64,000 bases of DNA from Chloroflexota bacterium (GTDB taxonomy: Bacteria; Chloroflexota; Anaerolineae; Anaerolineales; Anaerolineaceae). Location: assembly GCA_021825925.1 (NCBI GenBank), contig JAKAFP010000001.1, forward strand, positions 248,001-312,000, given 5' to 3'. Below, piece after piece: positions 6,225 through 16,946 of this stretch. The notes beneath the pieces are model-generated. The model saw only the letters and a list, made by a program, of their open reading frames with translations. It had not been told where the DNA came from and did no database searches. Positions within the stretch are counted from its first letter, which is position 1. Each line of letters begins with the position of its first letter. A program made the translations under genes and the position numbers.

Positions 6225-6259
6225 GAGGGGGGTCAGTATCTACCCCCATATATGGGGGG
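6225..6259 (+). promoter_or_regulatory. G/C-run leader hairpins upstream of nrdJ
   Basis: One C5 run (6243-6247) can pair either with the upstream G-run (6227-6232) or with the downstream G-run (6254-6259; CCCCCATATATGGGGG). The two pairings exclude each other. This looks like a possible two-state RNA leader, but it lies about 47 bases before the start codon and no ligand-binding riboswitch class was recognised. Confidence 0.35.
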
Positions 6260-6305
6260 TGTTCTTTTGAAAAATGAAGTTAATCGTAGCAAGAGGAGAC
6301 CGGTT

Positions 6306-8606
6306 ATGGACAAGGTAGACAAGCAAGCCATTAATGATGTTAACAATCCAATTTCTCACAACGATGACCCCTTCGGACAGGAAGTCATCGTTGTTCCAAG
6401 TACGGTGGTAAAACGAGACGGAAGCATTGTTCCTTTTAATATTGAACGAATTGAAGTGGCGTTAAGAAAATGTTTTGAAAGCATTGGCAAAAAGCCGATC
6501 ATTCCGATCGAAACCATTGCCCAACGTGCTGTCAATGTGGTGGCCAGCAAATATGACCGGCCCTCGGTGGAAGCCATTCAAGATATTGTTGAAATGACAC
6601 TCCAATCATTGGGTGAATTTTCAGCAGCGAAGCATTACATCTTGTATCGTGCCGAGCATGCCAAACTTCGTCAATCTCGCCCCGTACCCAGCGAGATCCG
6701 TCAGGCTTTTGAAGAATCAGATTCCTATTTTCCGACCCAGCTTCAGAAATTCCAGTTCTATGATAAATATTCCCGCTTTAACTATGAACTGGGCCATCGC
6801 GAAACCTGGGTTGAAACCGTGGATCGCGCCACCGATTACCTCAAGGAACTATCTGAAAACAAGCTTCCTGAAGAAACCTACGCCCGCGTTCGCAAGGGAA
6901 TCCTCGAAATGCGCGCCATGCCCTCCATGCGCCTGCTAGCCATGGCCGGCCCGGCCGCCCGCCGCAACAACATCGCCATCTATAACTGTTCCTACATGCC
7001 CGTGGATAGTATTGATTCCTTCGTTGAAGCTTTGATCATTTCGATGAGCGGTTGTGGTGTGGGTTATTCGGTCGAGAAACAATACGTTGAAAATTTTCCG
7101 CGTGTCAAACGCCAGGTTCCCGGCATTGCACCCACCATGATGATCGAAGACTCTGCAGAAGGCTGGGCGGATGCCTTGCGAAAAGGTCTGCAAACCTGGT
7201 TTGACGGTCACGACATGAAGTTTGATTTCTCTCAGATCAGGCCTGCCGGTTCCCCCCTGCGCATTAAAGGCGGCCGCGCTTCAGGCCCCGAACCCTTAAA
7301 GAAAATGCTTGAATTTGTGCGCAGCCGTGTGCTGGCCCAGCAGGGCGGTTTCATCCGTCCGATTGATGCACATGACATCATGTGCGAAGTAGGCAACGCG
7401 GCCGTATCAGGTGGCGTACGACGCACCGCCATGATCTCGCTCTTTGATTATGACGATATTGAAATGCGCAAATGCAAAAGCGGCGATTTTGAACGTGAAA
7501 ACAGCCAGCGTTGGAACGCCAATAACTCGCTGGTTTGGCCGGATCGCAAGCTGACCCAATTGGAAATCTTCAATATCATTGCCGACATGCATATGTCTGG
7601 CCGCGGCGAACCCGGCATCTTCAACCGACGTGCTGCACATAAAACCGTCCCAGAAAGACGCAAGAAGGTGGATTTCGGTACCAATCCCTGTGGCGAGATC
7701 GTGCTGCGTCCTTACGAATTCTGCAATCTGAGTATTGCGGTTGCCCGTAGTGATGATACCTATGAAACTCTGCGCGAAAAAGTCGAACTGGCCACCATCA
7801 TCGGTACCATCCAGGCCATGGCCACCAACTTCCCCGGCATGCGCGATGTGTGGAAGCAGAATTGTGAAGAAGAACGCCTGCTTGGCGTGGATATTAACGG
7901 CCAACTCGACAGTCTGGTCGCCCAGGACCCTGAAGTACAGGAAAAACTGCGCAAAGTGGCTGTTGAAACAAACGAAAAATATGCTGATCTGCTTGGCATC
8001 AACCGTTCCGCCGCTGTCACCACCGTGAAACCCTCTGGCAACAGTTCTCAACTTTTGGATTGTTCCCCCGGCATACATCCCCGCTGGTCGCCTTACTATG
8101 TCCGCAACGTACGCGTTGGCACACACTCGCCCATATTCAAAGTCCTGCGCGATGCCGGTGTTCCCATGAGCCCTGAAAATGGCCAAACGATCGAAAACGC
8201 CACCACCTGGGTCATTCACTTCCCGGTCAAGGCACCCGAAGGCGCCATCACCCGTGAAGCGCGCCCCGCACTGCTGCAGTGTGACTATTGGCTGCAAAAT
8301 AAGCTGCACTGGACGGAGCATAATCCCAGCGTGACCATCACCTACAAACCGGATGAGATCATTGACATCATCAAGTGGGTTTGGGAGCATCAGGATGTGA
8401 TTGGCGGTATGACCTTCCTGCCTTCTTATGATTCACTCTTCAACCAAATGCCTTACGAGCAGATTGATGAAGCGGAGTACAACAAGCTGGCTGCCAAGTT
8501 CCCGAACATTGATTTCTCAAAGCTCTATTATTATGAAGAAAAAGACCTTACCACTGCAGCCCAGGAATTAGCCTGTCTGGCGGGTACTTGCTCGATTGAG
8601 TTCTAG
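6306..8606 (+). CDS. nrdJ: Adenosylcobalamin-dependent ribonucleoside-triphosphate reductase (class II, monomeric type)
   Basis: 766 residues. It reduces ribonucleotides to deoxyribonucleotides using adenosylcobalamin for radical generation, so it does not need oxygen. An ATP-cone-like allosteric domain is at the N terminus (VVKRDGSIVPFNIERIEVAL, about 25-110). The catalytic barrel carries NPCGEI (the Asn-Cys-Glu active-site motif) and PSGNSSQLLDCSPGIHPRW, characteristic of the Lactobacillus RTPR-like subgroup. The C-terminal CLAGTC supplies the thioredoxin-linked cysteine pair. The start is the ATG at 6306 with AGGAG eight bases upstream; an in-frame ATG at 6252 lacks a binding site. It leads into the pyrimidine cluster that follows, matching its role as source of deoxynucleotides. 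Confidence 0.95.
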   Translation: MDKVDKQAINDVNNPISHNDDPFGQEVIVVPSTVVKRDGSIVPFNIERIEVALRKCFESIGKKPIIPIETIAQRAVNVVASKYDRPSVEAIQDIVEMTLQSLGEFSAAKHYILYRAEHAKLRQSRPVPSEIRQAFEESDSYFPTQLQKFQFYDKYSRFNYELGHRETWVETVDRATDYLKELSENKLPEETYARVRKGILEMRAMPSMRLLAMAGPAARRNNIAIYNCSYMPVDSIDSFVEALIISMSGCGVGYSVEKQYVENFPRVKRQVPGIAPTMMIEDSAEGWADALRKGLQTWFDGHDMKFDFSQIRPAGSPLRIKGGRASGPEPLKKMLEFVRSRVLAQQGGFIRPIDAHDIMCEVGNAAVSGGVRRTAMISLFDYDDIEMRKCKSGDFERENSQRWNANNSLVWPDRKLTQLEIFNIIADMHMSGRGEPGIFNRRAAHKTVPERRKKVDFGTNPCGEIVLRPYEFCNLSIAVARSDDTYETLREKVELATIIGTIQAMATNFPGMRDVWKQNCEEERLLGVDINGQLDSLVAQDPEVQEKLRKVAVETNEKYADLLGINRSAAVTTVKPSGNSSQLLDCSPGIHPRWSPYYVRNVRVGTHSPIFKVLRDAGVPMSPENGQTIENATTWVIHFPVKAPEGAITREARPALLQCDYWLQNKLHWTEHNPSVTITYKPDEIIDIIKWVWEHQDVIGGMTFLPSYDSLFNQMPYEQIDEAEYNKLAAKFPNIDFSKLYYYEEKDLTTAAQELACLAGTCSIEF

Positions 8607-8750: not shown

Positions 8751-9485
8751 TTGGCCTCATTAGCGGGAAAAGTAATTCTGGTAACCGGCGGCGCGCATCG
8801 TGTTGGAAAATCCATCGCGTTGGAACTGGCACGCGAAGGAGCATCGGTTGCCATCACCTATCGCTCCTCCCTGAATGATGCTCTTCAGACCGTGGAAGAA
8901 CTTAAAGCCATGGGTGTTAAAGCTGTTGCTTTTTTCTGCGACCAAACTGATATTTCTCAAATACAAAAAACAGTGAGCGATGTGCATACCTTTTTCGGCC
9001 GGTTGGACGGATTGGTCAACAATGCCGCCATCATGCAGGAAATCCCATTTCTTGACATCACCCCCGAAGACTGGGCTCAAACCATGGATACCAATGCGCG
9101 GGCGCCTTTCTTCTTCACCCAGGCCGTAAGCAAGTTCATGCAAGCTCAGGAGGGTGGTGTGATCATCAACATCCTTGATGAGAGTGCGCAGGTTCCCACC
9201 CGCTACTACATTCATCACAGTGCCTCCAAGGCGGCGCTGCGCATGCTCACCCTTTCGACTGCGTTGGAGCTGGCGCCGAGCGTCCGCGTCAATGCAGTGC
9301 TGCCCGGTCCGGTCTTGATGCCCGAAGGCGGCGACGAGGAAAGATGGAAGCGTCTTGAAAAGAACACACCGCTCAAACGTCTGGGTTCACCCGAAGACGT
9401 TGCCAGGGCGGTTCTCTATTTAATGAAGGAAGAGTTCATTACCGGGCAGGTTTTGGTGGTGGATGGCGGCCGTACCATCAAATAA
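8751..9485 (+). CDS. Pteridine-reductase-like short-chain dehydrogenase with altered catalytic tyrosine
   Basis: 244 residues, TTG start with AGGAG seven bases upstream. The N-terminal Rossmann motif is TGGAHRVG, the TGxxxRxG form typical of pteridine reductases (PTR1/FolM), and Asp143 occupies the position of PTR1 Asp181 instead of the usual SDR serine. The catalytic Tyr of the YxxxK motif is replaced: the sequence reads H156-S-A-S-K160, with Asp143 to His156 at the same 13-residue spacing as PTR1 Asp181 to Tyr194. Y153 matches PTR1 Tyr191. Followed 19 bp later by the dUTPase-like gene. A role in regenerating reduced folate for the thymidylate-synthase homologue downstream is an attractive inference, but the missing Tyr leaves the activity uncertain. 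Confidence 0.8.
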   Translation: MASLAGKVILVTGGAHRVGKSIALELAREGASVAITYRSSLNDALQTVEELKAMGVKAVAFFCDQTDISQIQKTVSDVHTFFGRLDGLVNNAAIMQEIPFLDITPEDWAQTMDTNARAPFFFTQAVSKFMQAQEGGVIINILDESAQVPTRYYIHHSASKAALRMLTLSTALELAPSVRVNAVLPGPVLMPEGGDEERWKRLEKNTPLKRLGSPEDVARAVLYLMKEEFITGQVLVVDGGRTIK

Positions 9486-9504
9486 TCTGTATTGGAGATC
9501 ACAC

Positions 9505-10041
9505 ATGGGATCAGTTTTATCAGCAGCAAAGATCAGAGAACTTCAAAAAAACACACCTCCCTTGATCGAAGGGCTGTTGGACGCTGACCAGCAAATCCAG
9601 CCCAATGGCGTGGATCTCAGCCTATATTCCGTGCAGGCGTTTCAATCCGGCGGCCAGCTTGGCTTCGCAAGCAGTGAGCGCATTCTGCCAGAGTTAGCCC
9701 CCGTGGATTTTAAAGACGGCTGGGTGAATCTGCCGCAAGGTCAGTACCTGGTGACTTTTAATGAGATCGTGCATTTACCGGTTGAAGTGATGGCGCTTGG
9801 GCGTCCGCGTTCGAGCCTGCTGCGCATGGCTGTTTCAGTGGGTACAGCGGTTTGGGATGCGGGTTATAACGGACGCAGCCAAAGTCTGTTGATCGTCTAC
9901 AACCCGGGCGGCGTGCGGCTGGCGCAGAATGCTCGTCTGATGCAGCTTGTTTTCTTTGAGATTGAAGGCGGTACTCACGCCTACAACGGATTCTTCCAAA
10001 ATGAGAATATCAACCTACCCAAACAAAAGGATGCAGCATGA
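9505..10041 (+). CDS. dUTPase/dCTP-deaminase superfamily protein (archaeal-type dUTPase-like)
   Basis: 178 residues; ATG at 9505 preceded by GGAG (an in-frame upstream ATG at 9463 sits inside the previous gene and lacks a site). Core motifs are PRSSLLRM (about 101-108) and WDAGYNGRSQ (117-126) followed by a NP-G segment, the pattern of archaeal-type deoxyuridine triphosphatases. Asp118 matches the general-base aspartate of the superfamily. The glutamate that dCTP deaminases need (E. coli Glu138, ten residues after the Asp) is Leu128 here, so a deaminase function is unlikely. It probably hydrolyses dUTP or a related pyrimidine triphosphate to the monophosphate, feeding the synthase downstream. 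Its stop overlaps the next start by 4 bp. Confidence 0.8.
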   Translation: MGSVLSAAKIRELQKNTPPLIEGLLDADQQIQPNGVDLSLYSVQAFQSGGQLGFASSERILPELAPVDFKDGWVNLPQGQYLVTFNEIVHLPVEVMALGRPRSSLLRMAVSVGTAVWDAGYNGRSQSLLIVYNPGGVRLAQNARLMQLVFFEIEGGTHAYNGFFQNENINLPKQKDAA

Positions 10042-10466
10042 AAATCACGGCTTATGTGTCTGGGGCGCTTACCGGGGGGGATGAGATCGCATTGCTCAAG
10101 CTTTTTTATGAACGCATTGCTGAAACGTGCAAAAGCGCTGGAATAGACGCTTATGTTCCTCATCTTGTTTCTGATCCGATTGGCAACCCGAATATGACGC
10201 CGGAAGAAGTATATGACCTCGACCGCCGCCAGGTGCTGGATTCGAACCTGCTGGTGGCTTATGTGGGCTACCCATCACTGGGGGTTGGGCAGGAGATCGA
10301 GATTGCCCGTGAGAATAACATTCCTGTGGTGATGTTGATGGAAAAAGACCGCAGAATTTCACGCATGGCGCGTGGGAACCCCGCCGTGATCGCTGAGATC
10401 CATTTTAGCGATCATGATGACGCACTCCAACAGCTCTCACACTGGTTGAAGGAGTGGAAGGCATGA
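10038..10466 (+). CDS. DNPH1/nucleoside 2-deoxyribosyltransferase-like nucleotide hydrolase
   Basis: 142 residues of the nucleoside 2-deoxyribosyltransferase fold. The motif PSLGVGQE (79-86) closely matches the active-site loop of the mammalian 2'-deoxynucleoside 5'-phosphate N-hydrolase DNPH1, where the Glu is catalytic; Asp68 occupies the conserved acid position before the loop. DNPH1 cleaves the glycosidic bond of deoxynucleoside monophosphates, notably 5-hydroxymethyl-dUMP. It is translationally coupled on both sides (ATGA overlaps), so it should work on the same nucleotide pool as its neighbours. It could alternatively be a deoxyribosyltransferase; the short N-terminal part does not separate these. 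Confidence 0.78.
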   Translation: MKITAYVSGALTGGDEIALLKLFYERIAETCKSAGIDAYVPHLVSDPIGNPNMTPEEVYDLDRRQVLDSNLLVAYVGYPSLGVGQEIEIARENNIPVVMLMEKDRRISRMARGNPAVIAEIHFSDHDDALQQLSHWLKEWKA

Positions 10467-11293
10467 CCCAGTTTGACCGCACTTACAGCGACTGCTTGCG
10501 CCAGATCCTTGACCACGGCATTGAAGAGGTCAATGAACGTACCGGTCACAAGGTTAAGGCATTGCCTGGGTTGCATTTTAATCTGGATGCGGGCTTTCCG
10601 CTTTTAAGCTTGCGCAAGATCGCTCCGCGTGTGTTTGCCGCGGAACAGGTCTGGTTCATGATGGGCAGCCGCAAACCGGTTGAGTTTATTGATCAATACA
10701 CCAAGATTTGGAATGATTTCACCAATCTTAACGGTGTGGTGAATTCCGCCTACGGCTTTCGCTGGCGGCAGTTCTTTGGCCGTGACCAGATCGGGCTGTT
10801 GGTGAAACTGCTTGAAAAAGAACGCAGTTCCCGCCATGGTGTGGTCATCACCTGGGACCCGGCCGGGGACGGCTTGAACCCCGAACTTAAAAAGAAGAAC
10901 GTGCCCTGCCCGCTTTCGTTTACCGTCAACATCATCGGTGAAAAACTTCACTTTCACACCATCTTCCGCTCCAACGACATGGTGGTGGGCTGCCCGTTTG
11001 ATGTGGCAGGTTTCGCGCTGCTGCAGCGAATGCTGGCCGCCCGACTGGGGGTTGGGGTGGGCGTTTATTCCCATTCCATCTCCAATGCGCATATTTATGA
11101 CGTACATTATGACGCGGCACGTGAGATCATCAGCCGCACCGGCCAGGAAAAAGAGATCGAACTTACCGCCCAACCGGATTGGTTTGAACGCGCCGAAAAG
11201 GGCGATGTGACCCTGGTGGACGAGATCGTGAAGCTACTTGATGAACAATACACCCCCGCGCCGCCCATCAAAGGGCTGCCTGTGGTGTTGTAA
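10463..11293 (+). CDS. Thymidylate-synthase homologue with a cytidine-type Asp (TS or dCMP hydroxymethylase)
   Basis: 276 residues; start ATG at 10463 overlapping the previous stop, with GGAG upstream (GTG at 10454 is the alternative). Thymidylate synthase landmarks are present: Glu61, Trp101, nucleophile Cys149 (VPCP), Arg169-Ser170-x-Asp172 and His210-x-Tyr212. The position of E. coli Asn177, which recognises uracil, is Asp180 (CPFD). Asp at this site is what dCMP hydroxymethylase of phage T4 has, and the E. coli Asn177Asp variant is known to accept dCMP. The His after the nucleophile is Pro150, and one of the two phosphate-binding Arg of the partner subunit appears to be His. So it could be a dCMP methylase/hydroxymethylase or a divergent thymidylate synthase. 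ThyA is not assigned for that reason. Confidence 0.75.
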   Translation: MTQFDRTYSDCLRQILDHGIEEVNERTGHKVKALPGLHFNLDAGFPLLSLRKIAPRVFAAEQVWFMMGSRKPVEFIDQYTKIWNDFTNLNGVVNSAYGFRWRQFFGRDQIGLLVKLLEKERSSRHGVVITWDPAGDGLNPELKKKNVPCPLSFTVNIIGEKLHFHTIFRSNDMVVGCPFDVAGFALLQRMLAARLGVGVGVYSHSISNAHIYDVHYDAAREIISRTGQEKEIELTAQPDWFERAEKGDVTLVDEIVKLLDEQYTPAPPIKGLPVVL

Positions 11294-11336
11294 GTTTTAG
11301 CTTCTATATAATATTTGTATTTAATTTAACAAAATA

Positions 11337-11389
11337 CCCTCACCCCTGCACCCCTCTCCCAAGCTTGGGAGAGGGGACGGGGGAGAGGG
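11337..11389. repeat. Nested palindromic purine/pyrimidine element
   Basis: The inner palindrome CCCCTCTCCC-AAGCTT-GGGAGAGGGG (11351-11376) is flanked by outer complementary blocks (CCCTCACCCC and GGGGGAGAGGG). It resembles dispersed intergenic REP-like palindromes. A related element occurs at 36536-36582. It sits in the 198-bp gap that interrupts the pyrimidine cluster and could act as a transcript-processing or termination hairpin. Confidence 0.6.
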
Positions 11390-11491
11390 ATAAAAATGAG
11401 TTTTTTTAAGGAAAGACTAATTTGTTAGAATAGCCCAGATTAGTGGGCTGTACATTGGAATACTTACTATCTGCTCTAAAAGGTTGGTTGG

Positions 11492-12520
11492 ATGACAGAT
11501 CTTGCTCCTGTTCTAAAAGGTGCGACACTTAAAGAACTTCTGGCTGAAGCCCATGATTACGTGGTCAGCCACGGCGTGAAACGGGAATCTTCACGCGGAA
11601 GTACCTTTTCGGTAAAGGCGCTCACGCTAGTCTGGGAAAACCCCTCAAATTCGGATGAGAATTATTGGGGTTGGTCACGTGAGTCAGCTGATTTCTACCA
11701 GCAGATCTTTGTGGAAGGGAAACCCGAGAACCGTCCCGAGCGACTGGCTGAAACGGGCGATTATCTCTTTCCATATACTTATGCCGCGCGCTCGCGCTTC
11801 TGGGATGGCGGCTGGGGATCCATCCAGGCCGTGCTTCGGGCTACTCAAAAATTGGGCGGCGATACGGCGGCTGTCACCCTTAATCAAAAAGCCTTTTTTG
11901 AATATCTGGCTGCAGCTGGCGAACTGGTTCATCTGCAGGTCATTTTGGCTGTGTGGGATTGGCTCGGCTGCCAGCAGCTGGCTGCTTTCCTCGAAAATCC
12001 CTTTCAGGTGGATTCTTTTTTAGCCAGGTCCCGTGTTGACCAGCTCAAACGTATCATTAATGAAATCAGCGAGAATCCGGCTTCACGCAGGGCGGTGACC
12101 GTCTCTTTTGTTTACCCTGAACTGGATCAGCGCATGAAACCCCTGCTGGGGATTCCGCCCTACCAGTTCTTTCAACTGCTGCCAGGCGAGGCGCATGAAC
12201 CACTGCACTCCTTTCATGTTCACCGCTCACTGGATGCCGGACAGGGCGTGCTGCTGGATTTCATGCACGATTATCACTGGCTGGCTGAAGCAGCCGCCAG
12301 GGTAAAACGTCCATTGGGAACCATCACTGTCACTGCGGGTGACTTCCATGTTTATCTGCCTTCTGAAGAGGCGCCCGCCGTGGACCGGATCGAAAAATGG
12401 CTAATGGATGTCACCGACGGCTACCAGGCCGGGATGGGTATGCCTGAGAAACTGCTGCAAAATGAAAAATATCTGCAAAATGCACAAAGAATTTATTCTT
12501 TATTGGGAGATGCGCAATGA
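11492..12520 (+). CDS. Thymidylate-synthase-fold protein lacking the catalytic cysteine
   Basis: 342 residues, not a recognised named family to me. The C-terminal half aligns by eye with thymidylate synthase: PPY-QFFQ (222-228) where the enzyme has PPC-H-FYQ, then Arg245-Ser-x-Asp248 21 residues later (20 in E. coli), Asp256 at the position of Asn177, and GDFHVY (His286, Tyr288) for the GD-H-Y motif. The nucleophile is thus Tyr224. The N-terminal 150 residues are aromatic-rich and unlike ThyA. It either uses another chemistry, serves as a regulatory or structural partner of the synthase upstream, or is a pseudoenzyme. Its ATGA stop overlaps the next start, so it is translationally coupled to the following dUTPase-like gene. 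Start ATG at 11492 with a weak AAAGG site. Confidence 0.65.
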   Translation: MTDLAPVLKGATLKELLAEAHDYVVSHGVKRESSRGSTFSVKALTLVWENPSNSDENYWGWSRESADFYQQIFVEGKPENRPERLAETGDYLFPYTYAARSRFWDGGWGSIQAVLRATQKLGGDTAAVTLNQKAFFEYLAAAGELVHLQVILAVWDWLGCQQLAAFLENPFQVDSFLARSRVDQLKRIINEISENPASRRAVTVSFVYPELDQRMKPLLGIPPYQFFQLLPGEAHEPLHSFHVHRSLDAGQGVLLDFMHDYHWLAEAAARVKRPLGTITVTAGDFHVYLPSEEAPAVDRIEKWLMDVTDGYQAGMGMPEKLLQNEKYLQNAQRIYSLLGDAQ

Positions 12521-13152
12521 TCTTAACCAGCCAGCAAATCATGGATCGTATCAATAAAAAGGAACTGGTCTTCTCGCCGCAGATTGATCAATTTCAAATC
12601 CAGCAGCATTCGGTGGACTTGCGCTTGGGCTTCTCCTTCTTGCTGCCCAAAGCCTGGGATCTGACCAATGAAGGTCGCGTGGCGGTGCGCACAGATCATC
12701 TCGACATGGACCACAAGACCATGCGCCATACCTTGGTGGAGCTGGAAGAGGGCCAGGTGTTTGACATTCTGCCCGGCGAGTATGTGGCGGTGACCACGCT
12801 CGAAAAGATCAAACTGCCTGACGACCTGATGGCGATCTTGTATCCCCGTTCATCGGTTAACCGCAGAGGACTTTCAATTGACCTCACCGGTGTGGTGGAT
12901 GCCGGCTACGAAGGCAACCTGCTGATCCCGGTGCGTAACAACACCCAATCACAGGTCATCCGCATGTATCCGGGCGAACGCATCTGTCAGGTGGTGTTTG
13001 AAGAAATCAGCGGATCGGTGGAAGTAAAACAAAGTCGCTGGCAGAACTCGGACGTTATTGTCACAATTAAGGAAGAACGCAGCACCTCCGAGATGGATTT
13101 TGTGCGCAAGGGCAACATCACCGGGCTGAAAAAGGAATTTCCGCTGGAATAA
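12517..13152 (+). CDS. dCTP-deaminase-like protein lacking the deaminase glutamate
   Basis: 211 residues, longer than the first family member in this cluster and closer to dCTP deaminase in its N terminus (QQHSVDLRLG, about 29-38) and in PRSSVNRRGLSIDLTG (110-125). Asp128 (VVDAGYEG) is conserved. E. coli Glu138, the residue that activates water for deamination, is Pro138 here (numbering coincides). Annotation pipelines would call it dcd; on residues it is better described as a dUTPase or pyrimidine triphosphate pyrophosphatase candidate. Last gene of the cluster, followed by a strong terminator. Confidence 0.78.
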   Translation: MILTSQQIMDRINKKELVFSPQIDQFQIQQHSVDLRLGFSFLLPKAWDLTNEGRVAVRTDHLDMDHKTMRHTLVELEEGQVFDILPGEYVAVTTLEKIKLPDDLMAILYPRSSVNRRGLSIDLTGVVDAGYEGNLLIPVRNNTQSQVIRMYPGERICQVVFEEISGSVEVKQSRWQNSDVIVTIKEERSTSEMDFVRKGNITGLKKEFPLE

Positions 13153-13262: not shown

Positions 13263-16200
13263 TCAGGCAGGCAGTAAGCGGTTATTGATCTCCAGCACAT
13301 CCTGCGGATAGCGGGTGAGATCCTGCACCAGGCGTGCCACATCTGATCCGTACTGCAGACGGCGGGCAAGGTAGGCAAACTCATCGCTGTCGTAGGGCGG
13401 AATGTTGACGTCCTTGGCGTTGCCTCTCACCACCCGCAGCGAATCAATCAACCAGCGCATGAAGGTATGCGCCTTGCGCAGACGGTCGTAATCCTCAGTG
13501 GAGAGATACCCGGCTTGATGCATCGCCGCCATGGCTTCGCGGATGTTGGTCTTTCTGAGGGTTGGATCTTTGAAGCCGTAATTGATCTGCAATCCCTGAA
13601 CCAGATATTCGATATCCACCAGGGCGCCGGGGCTGAACTTGGCGTTGAAGGTGCCGGCGGCCACCAGGTGGCGCACCTGTTTTTCGCGCATGGCGCGCAT
13701 GGCGGTGACGTCAAACAGAGTGCCATTATAGACATACTCATCACGCAGATTGGATAACTGTTCGCCCAGTTTGGTGTTGCCGGCAATCGGACGCTGTTTT
13801 ACCAGCGCCTGGCGTTCATACGGCCAGGCAGGGCCCTCCGGGGCGTAATACTTTTTATAAGAATCCAGCGAGACGGCCTGGCTGCCGGCCTTGCCGTAGG
13901 GGCGCAGCTGCAGATCAATGTGAAAGACGCCTTCCTGCCGAGCCTTGATCGCCTGCAAGAGAGATTGGATCAACTCTTCGTAGAAATTACTGGTGGCGAT
14001 GCTCTTAAATCCACCAGTCTTGCCCTGGCCTGAATAGACCAGCATCAGTTCAATATCGGAGGCAAAGCCCAGTTCGCGGCCGCCGCATTTGCCCAACGCC
14101 AGCAGAACGGCTTCGGAGGATTGGCGGTTTTCCAACCGGGGTTGACCGTATTCCTTGACCAGTTCCAGTTTGCAATGATCGAAGGCTTCGTTCAAGACGA
14201 CTTCCACCAGATCGGTGAGTTCTTCAGAGAAGGTTCCGAATTCGGCGGTGTATCCGAGGATGTGGCGCATGTCAATGCGGAACATTTCTCGGTCCTTGAA
14301 GGCGTTCAATCCTTCGCGCCACTGACTCGCTTTTGTAACAGCTTTTTGGGCTTCTTTTTCAAGTTCCTTACGGTTATAGGCTTTTTCCAGCGTGTTCACA
14401 TCCCTAACGATCGGAAAGAGGTTGGAATACTGCATGCGCAAAAAATCGTCCCACAGGAAGTCGCTCACCCCCAGCAGTTTGGCCAAGGCATTAAGCACTT
14501 CAGGCCTTTCTATGCGGGCGAATTCATCCACCCAGTTGGGACGTTCAAAAAGTTGATGGAGGAATTCCCTGAAATGCAGCATGGCACTTTCAGGGTTGGG
14601 AGAATAAGGCAGCAGGTGGGTGAAGTGCTTGATCAAGACTGCGGCAGCCCGCAGTTCGCGTTGCTTTTCGGGCGTGACGATCTTTTCACCCTTTTCATTG
14701 GTGACATACAAAATGTCGCTGGCCCGGCTGCCCACGGATTGCACCAGCATGCGCACGATGTTGATGTGGCTGAGCGCCAGGGCATTGCTGAACTCATACA
14801 GGAATCCGGCCGTATCCGGCGCGCTGATGCGCAGGAGCGTATATTTGTCATCCGCTTCGTTGTCAATTTCAATTTCCACCGGGTAGAGCGGCATGCCCTC
14901 GGTGGGAGCTTCGTGGAAGGTGGCGCCGACCCGCTTGACCAGGTCGCCCTGGGCTTCACGCCGCCGACCGGTTTTGATCTTGGTGATCAATTCCTTGAGG
15001 TCCTCGGCGTAGTTCTTCCATAATTCAGGTTGAATGGATTCCTCTTTAACAGAACGGACGATAAAGGCGTCCACAATCTTTTTCAGACCCTGATCCCCAC
15101 CGCCGTTATGATTAGCTTCATAAGTGAAGACCTGGCTTTCCAAAATATCCAGGCCGTAGAGGTACATCAAGCCGCAGATGATCGAAAGCACACCCAAATA
15201 GTCGTAACCGACGATGGTGATGCGCCAGCGGTTGTCATCCACGGGCTGGGGTTCGACGATAACCGGTTTTTCGCTTGAAAGTAATTCTGTCAGCCGGGTG
15301 TGGTGGGCAATCTCCTCAGGGCTGAAAGTGGTGGCGTAGGAAGCATCCATGCGGGCGACGTGCTGCTGCACCTTGATGGCGATCTCGGGGGTAAGAGCGA
15401 TCGGCGCAACGGGCTGACCGCCGACATATTTCAAGAAGATGGTGCGCAGCGCCAGTGAATGTTTTTCATAAGCCTGGATGAAGCGATCACCCGCTCCAAG
15501 CCCTTCAAACCCCAGGCGGCGGGCCAACAAGGCCAGCGATTGTTCATCCGAGGGCAGGGTGTAGGTCTGTTGATAATCGGTGATTTGCAGATAATGTTCG
15601 ATGGTGCGTAAAAAGATGTATCCATCGGTGAGGATGCGCGCCTCTTCAGGGGTGATCAGTCGGGCATCCCGCAGCAGGGGAATGGCCTTTAATGTGGAGC
15701 GTGTGCGGATGGAGGAGTGGGTCAGTTGCAGCGATTGAACCACGAATTCCACGTCGCGGATGGAGCCGGCACCGAGTTTAACCTCACCCCATTTGCGCCC
15801 TTTCTCAAGCAAAAATTCTTCGGTACGCTGCTTCATTGAAAAAATGCCGGCGCGCACTTCATCCGCGGGGATGCTGAAGAGCAGGGGTTCAACCTCTTTG
15901 CGCAGCTCCTCACCGAAAGCCAGGTTGCCGGCGATCGGGCGCGCCTTGAGAAACGCCTGCTTTTCCCAAAGCAGCGCAGACTCTTTGTAATAGCGCAGAT
16001 ATCCTTCGAGAGTAGTCACCAACGGACCGTCGTGTCCCCAGGGGCGCAAACGCATATCCACCCGGTATAGGAACCCTTCGCCGGTGCTTTTCGAGAGGAT
16101 GTCTATCAGTGATTTCGCCAACTTAAGGTTGTTGTCGGAACTTTGTTTGGCAATGAACAGCAGGTCAATATCCGAGCTGTAATTGAGCTCACGGGCGCCG

Positions 16201-16847
16201 AGTTTGCCCATGGCCAGCACGGTGAAATTGGCAGCCGATACGCCGGTTTCTTCGGCGGCCAACGCCAGGCAGGCCCGGGTCATGCCGATGGCCATGCGCG
16301 AAAGCTGAGAAAAGACGGCGCGCAGATCAAATAGATCGAGAAAATCGCTGACCCCGATGCGCAAGAGCTGCCTGCGCTGGTAGCGGCGAAGAGCATTTAA
16401 CCGTTCGAGGTAATCCTTCTTGGATTGCCAGGCAGCCTGACCTTCGCTGTGATATTGATCCACCGTTTTGCGTTCGGTCAGCAGACTGCGCTCCCCCACC
16501 AGGCGGATGGCGTCAGGGGTACCCAAAAGGATCTCGGTCAAAAAGGGGCTAGCTGAAAAGAGGGTTACCAAAATTTCAACCAGGCGCGGATTCTCTTGCA
16601 GATCGGCGAACACAGAGACGCCGAAGGCGTCCACCAGGCGCTCAAAGTGCACCAGCGAACGGTCAGGATCCGCAGCGCTGCGCAGCGCCGGGATCAACCA
16701 GGGCAGCAGGTCCTGGATGTTTTCGGGGTAAGCAGAAAGCAGTCGCATGAAAATGGACCGCGCATTTTGTCCGTCAGAAAAAATGGACTCGTGAACAAGC
16801 TGAGAAACGGCGTGATGGGTAACGGCAGTGATCTTTTCGGCATTCAT
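13263..16847 (-). CDS. glnE: Glutamine-synthetase adenylyltransferase with an inserted ACT-domain pair
   Basis: 1194 residues against about 950 for ordinary GlnE. The first nucleotidyltransferase domain has GKLGARELNYSSDIDLLF (about 207-225, deadenylylating half in GlnE). The second has GKCGGRELGFASDIEL (about 912-930, adenylylating half), where the usual Asp-x-Asp is Asp-x-Glu. Between them lie two ACT-like domains at about 540-610 (ITIVGYDYLGVLSIICGL) and 667-722 (LRISAPDTAGFLYEFSNA), which normal GlnE lacks; such a pair is the glutamine sensor of GlnD. The protein may therefore sense glutamine itself. Start ATG at 16847 with GGAAGAG upstream; an in-frame ATG at 16862 is the alternative, with a TATAAT close before it. 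Divergent from its presumed target glnA. Confidence 0.85.
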   Translation of the reverse strand: MNAEKITAVTHHAVSQLVHESIFSDGQNARSIFMRLLSAYPENIQDLLPWLIPALRSAADPDRSLVHFERLVDAFGVSVFADLQENPRLVEILVTLFSASPFLTEILLGTPDAIRLVGERSLLTERKTVDQYHSEGQAAWQSKKDYLERLNALRRYQRRQLLRIGVSDFLDLFDLRAVFSQLSRMAIGMTRACLALAAEETGVSAANFTVLAMGKLGARELNYSSDIDLLFIAKQSSDNNLKLAKSLIDILSKSTGEGFLYRVDMRLRPWGHDGPLVTTLEGYLRYYKESALLWEKQAFLKARPIAGNLAFGEELRKEVEPLLFSIPADEVRAGIFSMKQRTEEFLLEKGRKWGEVKLGAGSIRDVEFVVQSLQLTHSSIRTRSTLKAIPLLRDARLITPEEARILTDGYIFLRTIEHYLQITDYQQTYTLPSDEQSLALLARRLGFEGLGAGDRFIQAYEKHSLALRTIFLKYVGGQPVAPIALTPEIAIKVQQHVARMDASYATTFSPEEIAHHTRLTELLSSEKPVIVEPQPVDDNRWRITIVGYDYLGVLSIICGLMYLYGLDILESQVFTYEANHNGGGDQGLKKIVDAFIVRSVKEESIQPELWKNYAEDLKELITKIKTGRRREAQGDLVKRVGATFHEAPTEGMPLYPVEIEIDNEADDKYTLLRISAPDTAGFLYEFSNALALSHINIVRMLVQSVGSRASDILYVTNEKGEKIVTPEKQRELRAAAVLIKHFTHLLPYSPNPESAMLHFREFLHQLFERPNWVDEFARIERPEVLNALAKLLGVSDFLWDDFLRMQYSNLFPIVRDVNTLEKAYNRKELEKEAQKAVTKASQWREGLNAFKDREMFRIDMRHILGYTAEFGTFSEELTDLVEVVLNEAFDHCKLELVKEYGQPRLENRQSSEAVLLALGKCGGRELGFASDIELMLVYSGQGKTGGFKSIATSNFYEELIQSLLQAIKARQEGVFHIDLQLRPYGKAGSQAVSLDSYKKYYAPEGPAWPYERQALVKQRPIAGNTKLGEQLSNLRDEYVYNGTLFDVTAMRAMREKQVRHLVAAGTFNAKFSPGALVDIEYLVQGLQINYGFKDPTLRKTNIREAMAAMHQAGYLSTEDYDRLRKAHTFMRWLIDSLRVVRGNAKDVNIPPYDSDEFAYLARRLQYGSDVARLVQDLTRYPQDVLEINNRLLPA

Positions 16848-16946
16848 ACGACGCTCTTCCATACAAAAAATTATACTTTAAGTGTTTGATTTGGCCTTCG
16901 TGGTGAGCCACTCTTTTATCTTATTCCGTTTTGAGGCATAAAAAAG

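Follow-up and report, generated by a model that had tools for sequence, protein, structure and literature searches.

Six consecutive genes were analyzed in a 64,000-nucleotide (nt) stretch of contig JAKAFP010000001.1 (hereafter the window), which is part of the draft genome G000 (Anaerolineaceae; 3.4 Mb, 84% complete). All six open reading frames (ORFs) lie on the plus strand, and two of them encode proteins related to thymidylate synthase (TS): TS1 (10463-11293), a TS-fold enzyme which retains Cys146, and TS2 (11492-12520), a TS-fold partner without this Cys. The cluster is a real, conserved, and coherent two-part TS-fold module which stands in the place of ThyX in two Chloroflexota classes, and it looks like a thymidylate-synthesis operon. 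No thymidylate synthase other than ThyA and ThyX is known to be in use. We consider it very probable that the TS1/TS2 module makes the thymidylate (dTMP) of the cell instead of ThyX, because the module and ThyX exclude each other and because a distant cluster combines TS1 and TS2 with a dihydrofolate reductase (DHFR)-like protein, a Dcd-like protein (DCDL), and thymidylate kinase (tmk).

Occurrence of TS1/TS2 and ThyX in Chloroflexota

An earlier note on this DNA had proposed to look for conservation of the gene order and for thyX or a canonical thyA elsewhere in the genome. The same genes, in the same order and between the same flanking genes, were found in four further genomes of the genus (loci L004–L007), with TS1 92–96% and TS2 85–90% identical to the window proteins and two PF00303 matches per genome. 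In the window genome, neither a match to ThyX (PF02511) nor a third TS over the Pfam cut-off was detected. Among the 16 genomes of the genus, five have TS1 and TS2 without ThyX and 11 have ThyX without a TS (Fisher test, P-value = 2.3e-4; this and all Fisher values below ignore kinship and are descriptive only).

The pair is also present outside the genus. In 400 Chloroflexota genomes, TS1 (E<1e-120) and TS2 (E<1e-60) occur in the same four, G000, G339, G187, and G369 (P-value = 9.5e-10), and all other matches to the TS1 profile begin at 1e-34. The last three genomes belong to another class and contain one TS1-profile match each at E<=1e-20. TS1 and TS2 are encoded on different contigs in G187 and G369, indicating that linkage alone does not explain why they occur together. 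Weak matches to TS2 elsewhere in the phylum (G269, G439, and G490; E 1e-4 to 8e-4) were rejected as relatives. ThyX over cut-off was found in none of the eight TS1/TS2 genomes; a match in G369 was rejected as ThyX at E 0.10. In the class of G187 (47 genomes), ThyX is present in 32 genomes and TS2 in three, with no overlap (P-value = 0.028); 12 genomes have neither, and two of those contain ThyA. Neither ThyX nor a TS2 match was seen in genus g80 (G168, G269, G420, G460, and G467) or in G178.

In G339, the genes are arranged in the order TS1, DHFR-like, TS2, DCDL, and tmk. The nearest PDB chain of the DHFR-like protein is by far dihydrofolate reductase 1cz3 (102.6 bits, the next 44). Dihydrofolate is a product of methylating, not hydroxymethylating, TS enzymes, and a DHFR adjacent to TS1 thus hints at the formation of dihydrofolate.

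In a survey of 147 Anaerolineaceae genomes, ThyX was detected in 130 and PF00303 in seven. Eight of the ThyX-positive genomes, all of genus g10, have only matches at E 7e-5 to 4e-4. Neither family was detected in six g10 genomes or in G012, G014, G021, G030, and G095. ThyX was not found in G057, which encodes a canonical ThyA (2.8e-128) on a contig of 14.5 kb, and G142 has a 58-bit PF00303 match together with ThyX. Across the 14 genomes of g10 (G037–G050), ThyX is thus weak (eight) or undetected (six), and no PF00303 match was found at 1e-5, near-complete genomes included. The match in G142 is a TS-like protein of 248 amino acids (aa) encoded at 7807-8553 (minus strand) of locus L062; judged by eye, its neighbors resemble a PfkB kinase and a fusion protein containing a nucleotide kinase, and the locus is perhaps a modified-nucleotide island.

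Most ThyX proteins of Anaerolineaceae are tandem two-domain proteins of roughly 470–630 aa, in which the RHR motif is present only in the C-terminal half (8/8 read). Such a protein apparently joins an intact ThyX half to a degenerate one. The TS1/TS2 module shares with ThyX the presumed role in dTMP supply and with its tandem form the combination of an intact-motif half and a half lacking the motif; unlike the tandem protein, which is one polypeptide of the ThyX family, TS1 and TS2 come from an unrelated family.

TS1 Resembles Cytosine-Type TS of Phages

TS1 exceeds the cut-offs of PF00303 (159.5 > 24.3 bits) and, just, of TIGR03284 (109.4 > 108.35 bits). A residue map was made by aligning eight TS1, eight TS2, six phage, and 18 further TS proteins with Escherichia coli ThyA; residues are numbered after E. 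coli ThyA and, for the Dcd-type proteins, E. coli Dcd. The canonical ThyA set comprised 16 rows, namely E. coli ThyA and 15 proteins encoded by Chloroflexota genomes, and three odd long TS-like proteins (thyA_L081, L082, and L083) were kept out of it. Those three come from other Chloroflexota, have 313–389 aa, and are changed at residues 48, 127, 147, and 165; L082 also has Asp177.

Every canonical ThyA row has Cys146, His147, Gln165, Asn177, and the Arg126-Arg127 pair, with Ser (8/16), Glu (5/16), or Gln (3/16) at residue 180. Like ThyA, TS1 has the TS fold and retains Cys146 (8/8), Glu58, Trp80, Tyr94, Arg166, Asp169, His207, and Tyr209. Unlike ThyA, it has Asp at the Asn177 site (8/8; Asp180 in its own numbering), Pro147 (8/8), Phe (5/8) or Val (3/8) at residue 165, Gly180, and Arg126 followed by His127 (7/8) or Gln127 (1/8), and it is accompanied by a Cys-less partner in all eight genomes. 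Both the Asn177 expected for deoxyuridylate (dUMP) and the Arg126-Arg127 phosphate pair were looked for and are absent, and for this reason TS1 was not filed as ThyA. The earlier note had recognized this Asp; it overlooked the absence of His147 and Arg127 from TS1 and the presence of an Asp at the Asn177 site of TS2 as well. The altered residues of the cluster proteins are invariant across the five orthologs of the genus, and the features of TS1 and TS2 are constant in all eight genomes except for TS1 residues 127 and 165. An AlphaFold2 (AF2) model of TS1, of middling quality (pLDDT 67.3), is closest to ordinary TS (VIA Z 22.9, root mean square deviation [rmsd] 2.9 over 240 residues).

The best phage matches of TS1 are 34–40% identical to it and, among the best 30 of 3608 records, come from phages of Pseudomonas, Xanthomonas, Stenotrophomonas, Janthinobacterium, Rhodobacter, Ruegeria, and Achromobacter. 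Five such proteins have both Asp177 and Pro147; in the six phage relatives aligned, Asp177 is present in 6/6 and Pro147 in 5/6. In a tree of 32 rows, which left out all TS2 rows and thyA_L082, TS1 and five phage Asp177 TS are set apart from ThyA with support 100/100. L081 and L083 fall on the TS1/phage side and the protein of phage Manatee on the ThyA side, long branches being flagged. According to PMC9206674, AXL1, DLP4, PaMx74, and Xp12 form one phage genus, and 5-methylcytosine replaces cytosine in Xp12 DNA. TS1 groups with these Pamexvirus-type TS, and the comparison was made through relatives of Xp12. Residues 177 and 147 are described as the two which discriminate best between TS of cytosine-modified contigs and other TS (PMC8670742); the text seen names Asp at 177 and does not name the residue at 147. 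Asp177 has also been tied to cytosine substrates, and Arg126' of the partner chain placed at the phosphate (PMC5175136).

By its sequence, TS1 has the Asp177, the changed residue 147, and the grouping with phage enzymes of a cytosine-type TS (deoxycytidylate [dCMP] methylase). On balance, TS1 is slightly more likely than not to act on dCMP. It shares Asp177 with dCMP-acting TS of phages (Xp12-type dCMP methylase and T4 dCMP hydroxymethylase) and with MilA and, unlike the phage members, is chromosomal, replaces ThyX, has TS2 as a partner, and has no adjacent dCMP deaminase. All six phage loci inspected carry an annotated dCMP deaminase downstream of TS, and three of them a DHFR. That the cluster derives from a prophage is unsupported as its main explanation, since searches with A2 and A7 (TS2) and with A8 (TS1) returned no viral_contigs locus, and it is also weakened by the nrdJ-like and glnE-like flanks common to the other four genus loci.

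TS2 Is a TS-Fold Protein without the Cys

TS2 matches PF00303 over cut-off (40 bits) in its C-terminal part. As the earlier note had seen, it lacks Cys146: Pro occupies this place in 8/8 (Pro223 of the window protein according to both MAFFT and hhalign), and the HMMER alignment has a gap there. Tyr147, His165, Asp177, His180, Arg126-Arg127, Arg166, Ser167, Asp169, His207, and Tyr209 are invariant in all eight TS2 proteins, and the hhalign profile alignment pairs these positions of TS2 with their TS1 counterparts in the same way (probability 67%, E 5e-5). The AF2 model of TS2 (pLDDT 69.8, again middling) matches TS structures (VIA Z 11.2, rmsd 4.8 over 169 residues). Its top structural match is AfhB (PDB 9iqu/9iqc, by title a phage TS-fold dCMP hydroxylase; Z 11.2), which is tied with ordinary TS and absent from the best 60 of 114 sequence matches; AfhB was thus rejected as a special relative of TS2, and the shared fold shows no function. 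The phage matches, 99 records which each cover less than 80% of TS2, and one plasmid match look like general TS similarity; in 20 of the 99, nearly all are named thymidylate synthase and one pyrimidine hydroxymethylase.

TS2 retains the Arg126-Arg127 pair that is partly lost in TS1, and we give an even chance to a TS1/TS2 heterodimer in which TS2 supplies Arg127. The AF2 models of both proteins are single-chain and hence blind to such a dimer. Arg127 is also lost in the protein of phage Tedan and in L081/L083, so the residue change in TS1 does not force a heterodimer. The invariant His165, Asp177, and His180 of TS2 stand at three positions which, in TS, lie around C4 of the pyrimidine.

Deaminases

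Dcd is present in each of the 11 ThyX genomes of the genus, with Glu138 in 10/11. No Glu-type dCTP deaminase was found in the five TS1/TS2 genomes of the genus, whose Dcd family comprises only the dUTPase (DUT) and DCDL of the cluster. With a phage dCMP-deaminase profile, matches at E < 3e-21 were obtained in seven of the 11 ThyX genomes, and nothing better than 6.8e-8 in any of the eight that have TS1/TS2. The Fisher value for dCMP deaminase is 0.034.

Other Genes of the Cluster and Its Flanks

The first gene (8751-9485, plus strand) encodes a FolM/PTR1-like short-chain reductase (SDR), a proposed dihydrofolate reductase. It has His156 in place of the Tyr of YxxxK in 5/5 proteins, as the earlier note had observed, and an invariant TGGAHRVG (5/5), which fits the PTR1/FolM motif TGX3RXG (PMC1971073). 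Like FolM and PTR1, it has this motif; unlike them, it has His for Tyr, and its best NCBIfam match, pteridine reductase NF006598, stays under the cut-off (231 against 288 bits). It scores 102.5 bits with FolM 5tgd, and other SDRs score higher in the same PDB sequence comparison. No match to FolA was found in any of the 16 genus genomes.

The second gene (9505-10041, plus strand) encodes DUT, a dUTPase of the PRK02253 type over the NF002598 cut-off (186 > 130 bits), with 9w59 as best solved relative (181 bits). The sixth (12517-13152, plus strand) encodes DCDL, a candidate dCTP/dUTP diphosphatase over the TIGR02274 cut-off (118.4 > 92.8 bits; 4xjc, 70.6 bits). The earlier note had stated that both Dcd-type proteins lack the deaminase Glu. 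At the place of E. coli Dcd Glu138, DCDL indeed has Pro, without the Glu138 of dCTP deaminase, and DUT has Leu; the dUTPase family is not expected to have the Glu, so that its absence from DUT is no anomaly. A surprising loss of deaminase function in both proteins was thus rejected: as judged from family membership, DUT is an ordinary dUTPase, and DCDL is the one which differs from its superfamily in lacking the Glu. In G339, a DCDL 50% identical to that of the window also adjoins TS2 and has the same Pro for Glu.

The third gene (10038-10466, plus strand) encodes a DNPH1/MilB-like candidate nucleoside 5'-phosphate N-hydrolase, which is under the PF05014 gathering score (23.4 < 28.8 bits) and whose nearest PDB sequences are BlsM (E 3e-4), MilB (8e-4), and Rcl (0.0065). 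The clean-up enzyme that the earlier note had assigned here is thus unproven. Its position next to a cytosine-type TS is reminiscent of MilA and MilB, which are paired in mildiomycin biosynthesis.

For DUT and TS1, the start was set at a later ATG than that of the longest ORF. The note's description of six genes with ATGA-type overlaps directly after nrdJ holds, with 4-nt overlaps at three of the five junctions, a gap of 19 nt between the SDR and DUT genes, and 144 nt between the end of the nrdJ-like gene and the first ORF. The spacer between TS1 and TS2 (11294-11491) has 198 nt in the window, 218 nt in L007, and 27–29 nt in L004–L006. In the window, it contains a perfect 26-nt palindrome (11351-11376), the sole copy in the window at <=3 mismatches. 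The nrdJ-like gene (6252-8606, plus strand) encodes a class II (B12) ribonucleoside-triphosphate reductase (268 bits with TIGR02505, whose cut-off is 340; matches to PF02867 and ATP-cone) and is directly upstream of the cluster in the other four genus loci too. We propose that it is a context gene and the source of deoxynucleoside triphosphates. A glnE-like gene (13263-16862, minus strand; NF010707, 451 bits, under the cut-off of 625) adjoins the cluster in 5/5 genus loci, and its product has a GlnD-like middle part at residues of about 496–740. Among the ORFs listed beside the cluster, no DNA-modification or antibiotic gene was recognized by eye (no family scan).

A Possible Pathway and Its Alternatives

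The reading that we favor, with slightly less than even confidence as a whole, is that of a dTMP module which replaces ThyX and in which TS1 methylates dCMP and TS2 is an obligate partner aiding dTMP formation. TS1 would use methylene-tetrahydrofolate to convert dCMP to 5-methyl-dCMP and release dihydrofolate, which the FolM-like SDR (in G339, the DHFR-like protein) would recycle. TS2 would be an obligate TS-fold partner that keeps a nucleotide pocket along with its Arg pair, and it would help turn the product of TS1 into dTMP, perhaps as a C4 deaminase. DCDL would yield dCMP from dCTP, DUT would remove dUTP, and the DNPH-like protein may destroy off-products. Methylation and deamination would then be split between the halves of a heterodimer, and uracil nucleotides would never be needed.

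The deaminase step is the more speculative part. That TS2 deaminates 5-methyl-dCMP is suggested by the lack of any other known kind of pyrimidine-nucleotide deaminase among those found, by the position of TS2 after TS1 where phages have a dCMP deaminase, and by the His-Asp-His set at 165/177/180; we regard this activity as doubtful. Equally tentative is the complete scheme, a third way to thymidylate in which TS1 makes 5-methyl-dCMP from dCMP and His165-Asp177-His180 of TS2 removes the amino group to give dTMP. In the Creative Commons-licensed literature, a search on deamination of 5-methyl-dCMP to dTMP gave nothing useful, which is no proof of novelty; nothing was found on the Gln217/Asn229/Ser232 network, and nothing useful on TS of Chloroflexota or Ktedonobacter, PMC10733785 included.

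Several points weigh against this favored reading. The activities assigned to TS1 and TS2, like every reaction given here, are inferred from what was observed, namely gene content, linkage, co-occurrence, exclusion of ThyX, and residues. As far as the models go, the nearest folds of TS1 are ordinary TS, and no dCMP-specific family ranks ahead of them; the loss of Arg127 in Tedan and L081/L083 counts here as well. Foldseek matches the TS2 model at E 6e-6 with a TM-score of 0.33 (range 0.3–0.4) and rmsd of 10.9, and a model of this middling quality yields no metal geometry for the putative deaminase site. The reductase of G339 scores higher with Pfam RibD_C (64.6 bits) than with DHFR_1 (53.1 bits) and reaches none of the NCBIfam cut-offs. 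Weak dCMP-deaminase matches (E 7e-8 to 2e-4) exist in five of the eight TS1/TS2 genomes; two of these matches were read by eye, one being guanine-deaminase-like and one TadA-like. In addition, a strong match to dCMP deaminase is missing from four of the 11 ThyX relatives as well, which makes absence of the deaminase weak evidence. The genomes are drafts (68–98% complete), and no match to ThyX or TS2 was seen in G178, which shares its genus with G187. A single event may account for the five cases in the genus, and the eight genomes may represent as few as two or three acquisitions.

The main alternative, which we hold to be a serious possibility short of probable, is that TS1, as a homodimer or in a TS1/TS2 heterodimer, is a plain thymidylate synthase acting on dUMP. 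Asp177 would be protonated or compensated, TS2 would be a pseudoenzyme lending Arg127, and dUMP would come via the dUTPase from dUTP made by the ribonucleotide reductase, in which case the missing deaminases are irrelevant. The replacement of ThyX, the genuine dUTPase within the operon, the TIGR03284 score just over cut-off, the ordinary TS folds nearest to TS1, and its retained residues, from Glu58 and Cys146 to Tyr209, all agree with this. On the other hand, Asp177 marks cytosine-acting TS, Asn177 and His147 are present in all 16 canonical ThyA rows, and the alternative leaves the invariant His165-Asp177-His180 of TS2 unexplained. The earlier note had said that its proposal would fall if the TS homolog made dTMP efficiently from dUMP and was the only essential thymidylate synthase; half of this agrees with our data, in that TS1 is the only TS found with the Cys.

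It is improbable that TS1 has 5-methyl- or 5-hydroxymethyl-dCMP as its end product, destined for DNA or some small molecule, with thymidine obtained by salvage. This possibility draws on the relatives of TS1 in Pamexvirus-type phages (PMC9206674), the nearness of the adjacent N-hydrolase to BlsM and MilB among PDB sequences, and a report that the few bacteria lacking both ThyA and ThyX carry thymidine kinase (PMC1971073). It is opposed by the exact exchange with ThyX in the genus, by the DHFR-like, tmk, and Dcd-like genes of the G339 cluster, and by the lack of DNA-modification or antibiotic genes recognized by eye among the ORFs listed beside the cluster. The earlier note had left two options, a C5-modified deoxycytidylate or an alternative thymidylate route. 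The second is better supported, by the lack of ThyX or another TS, the exclusion within the genus, and the G339 cluster; the first is less likely as an end product because no other source of dTMP was found (in searches that did not extend to thymidine kinase), and it fits the residues of TS1 as an intermediate. Finally, a conventional order with a new deaminase, TS2 converting dCMP to dUMP and TS1 methylating the latter, agrees with the place of TS2 directly after TS1, as dCMP deaminase follows TS in phages, and with the lack of a known deaminase of that kind, but it is very unlikely given that Asp177 of TS1 points to cytosine and that the metal site of TS2 is only putative.

Implications

In the TS1/TS2 genomes of two Chloroflexota classes, neither ThyX nor a ThyA with Asn177 was found, and a cytosine-type TS with an inactive-looking partner is present instead. 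Either dTMP arises via 5-methyl-dCMP in these organisms, or a TS with Asp177 uses dUMP and the accepted substrate rule fails. Both outcomes bear on the annotation of phage "thymidylate synthases" sharing these residues, and the cluster may make thymidylate by a route that has not yet been described.

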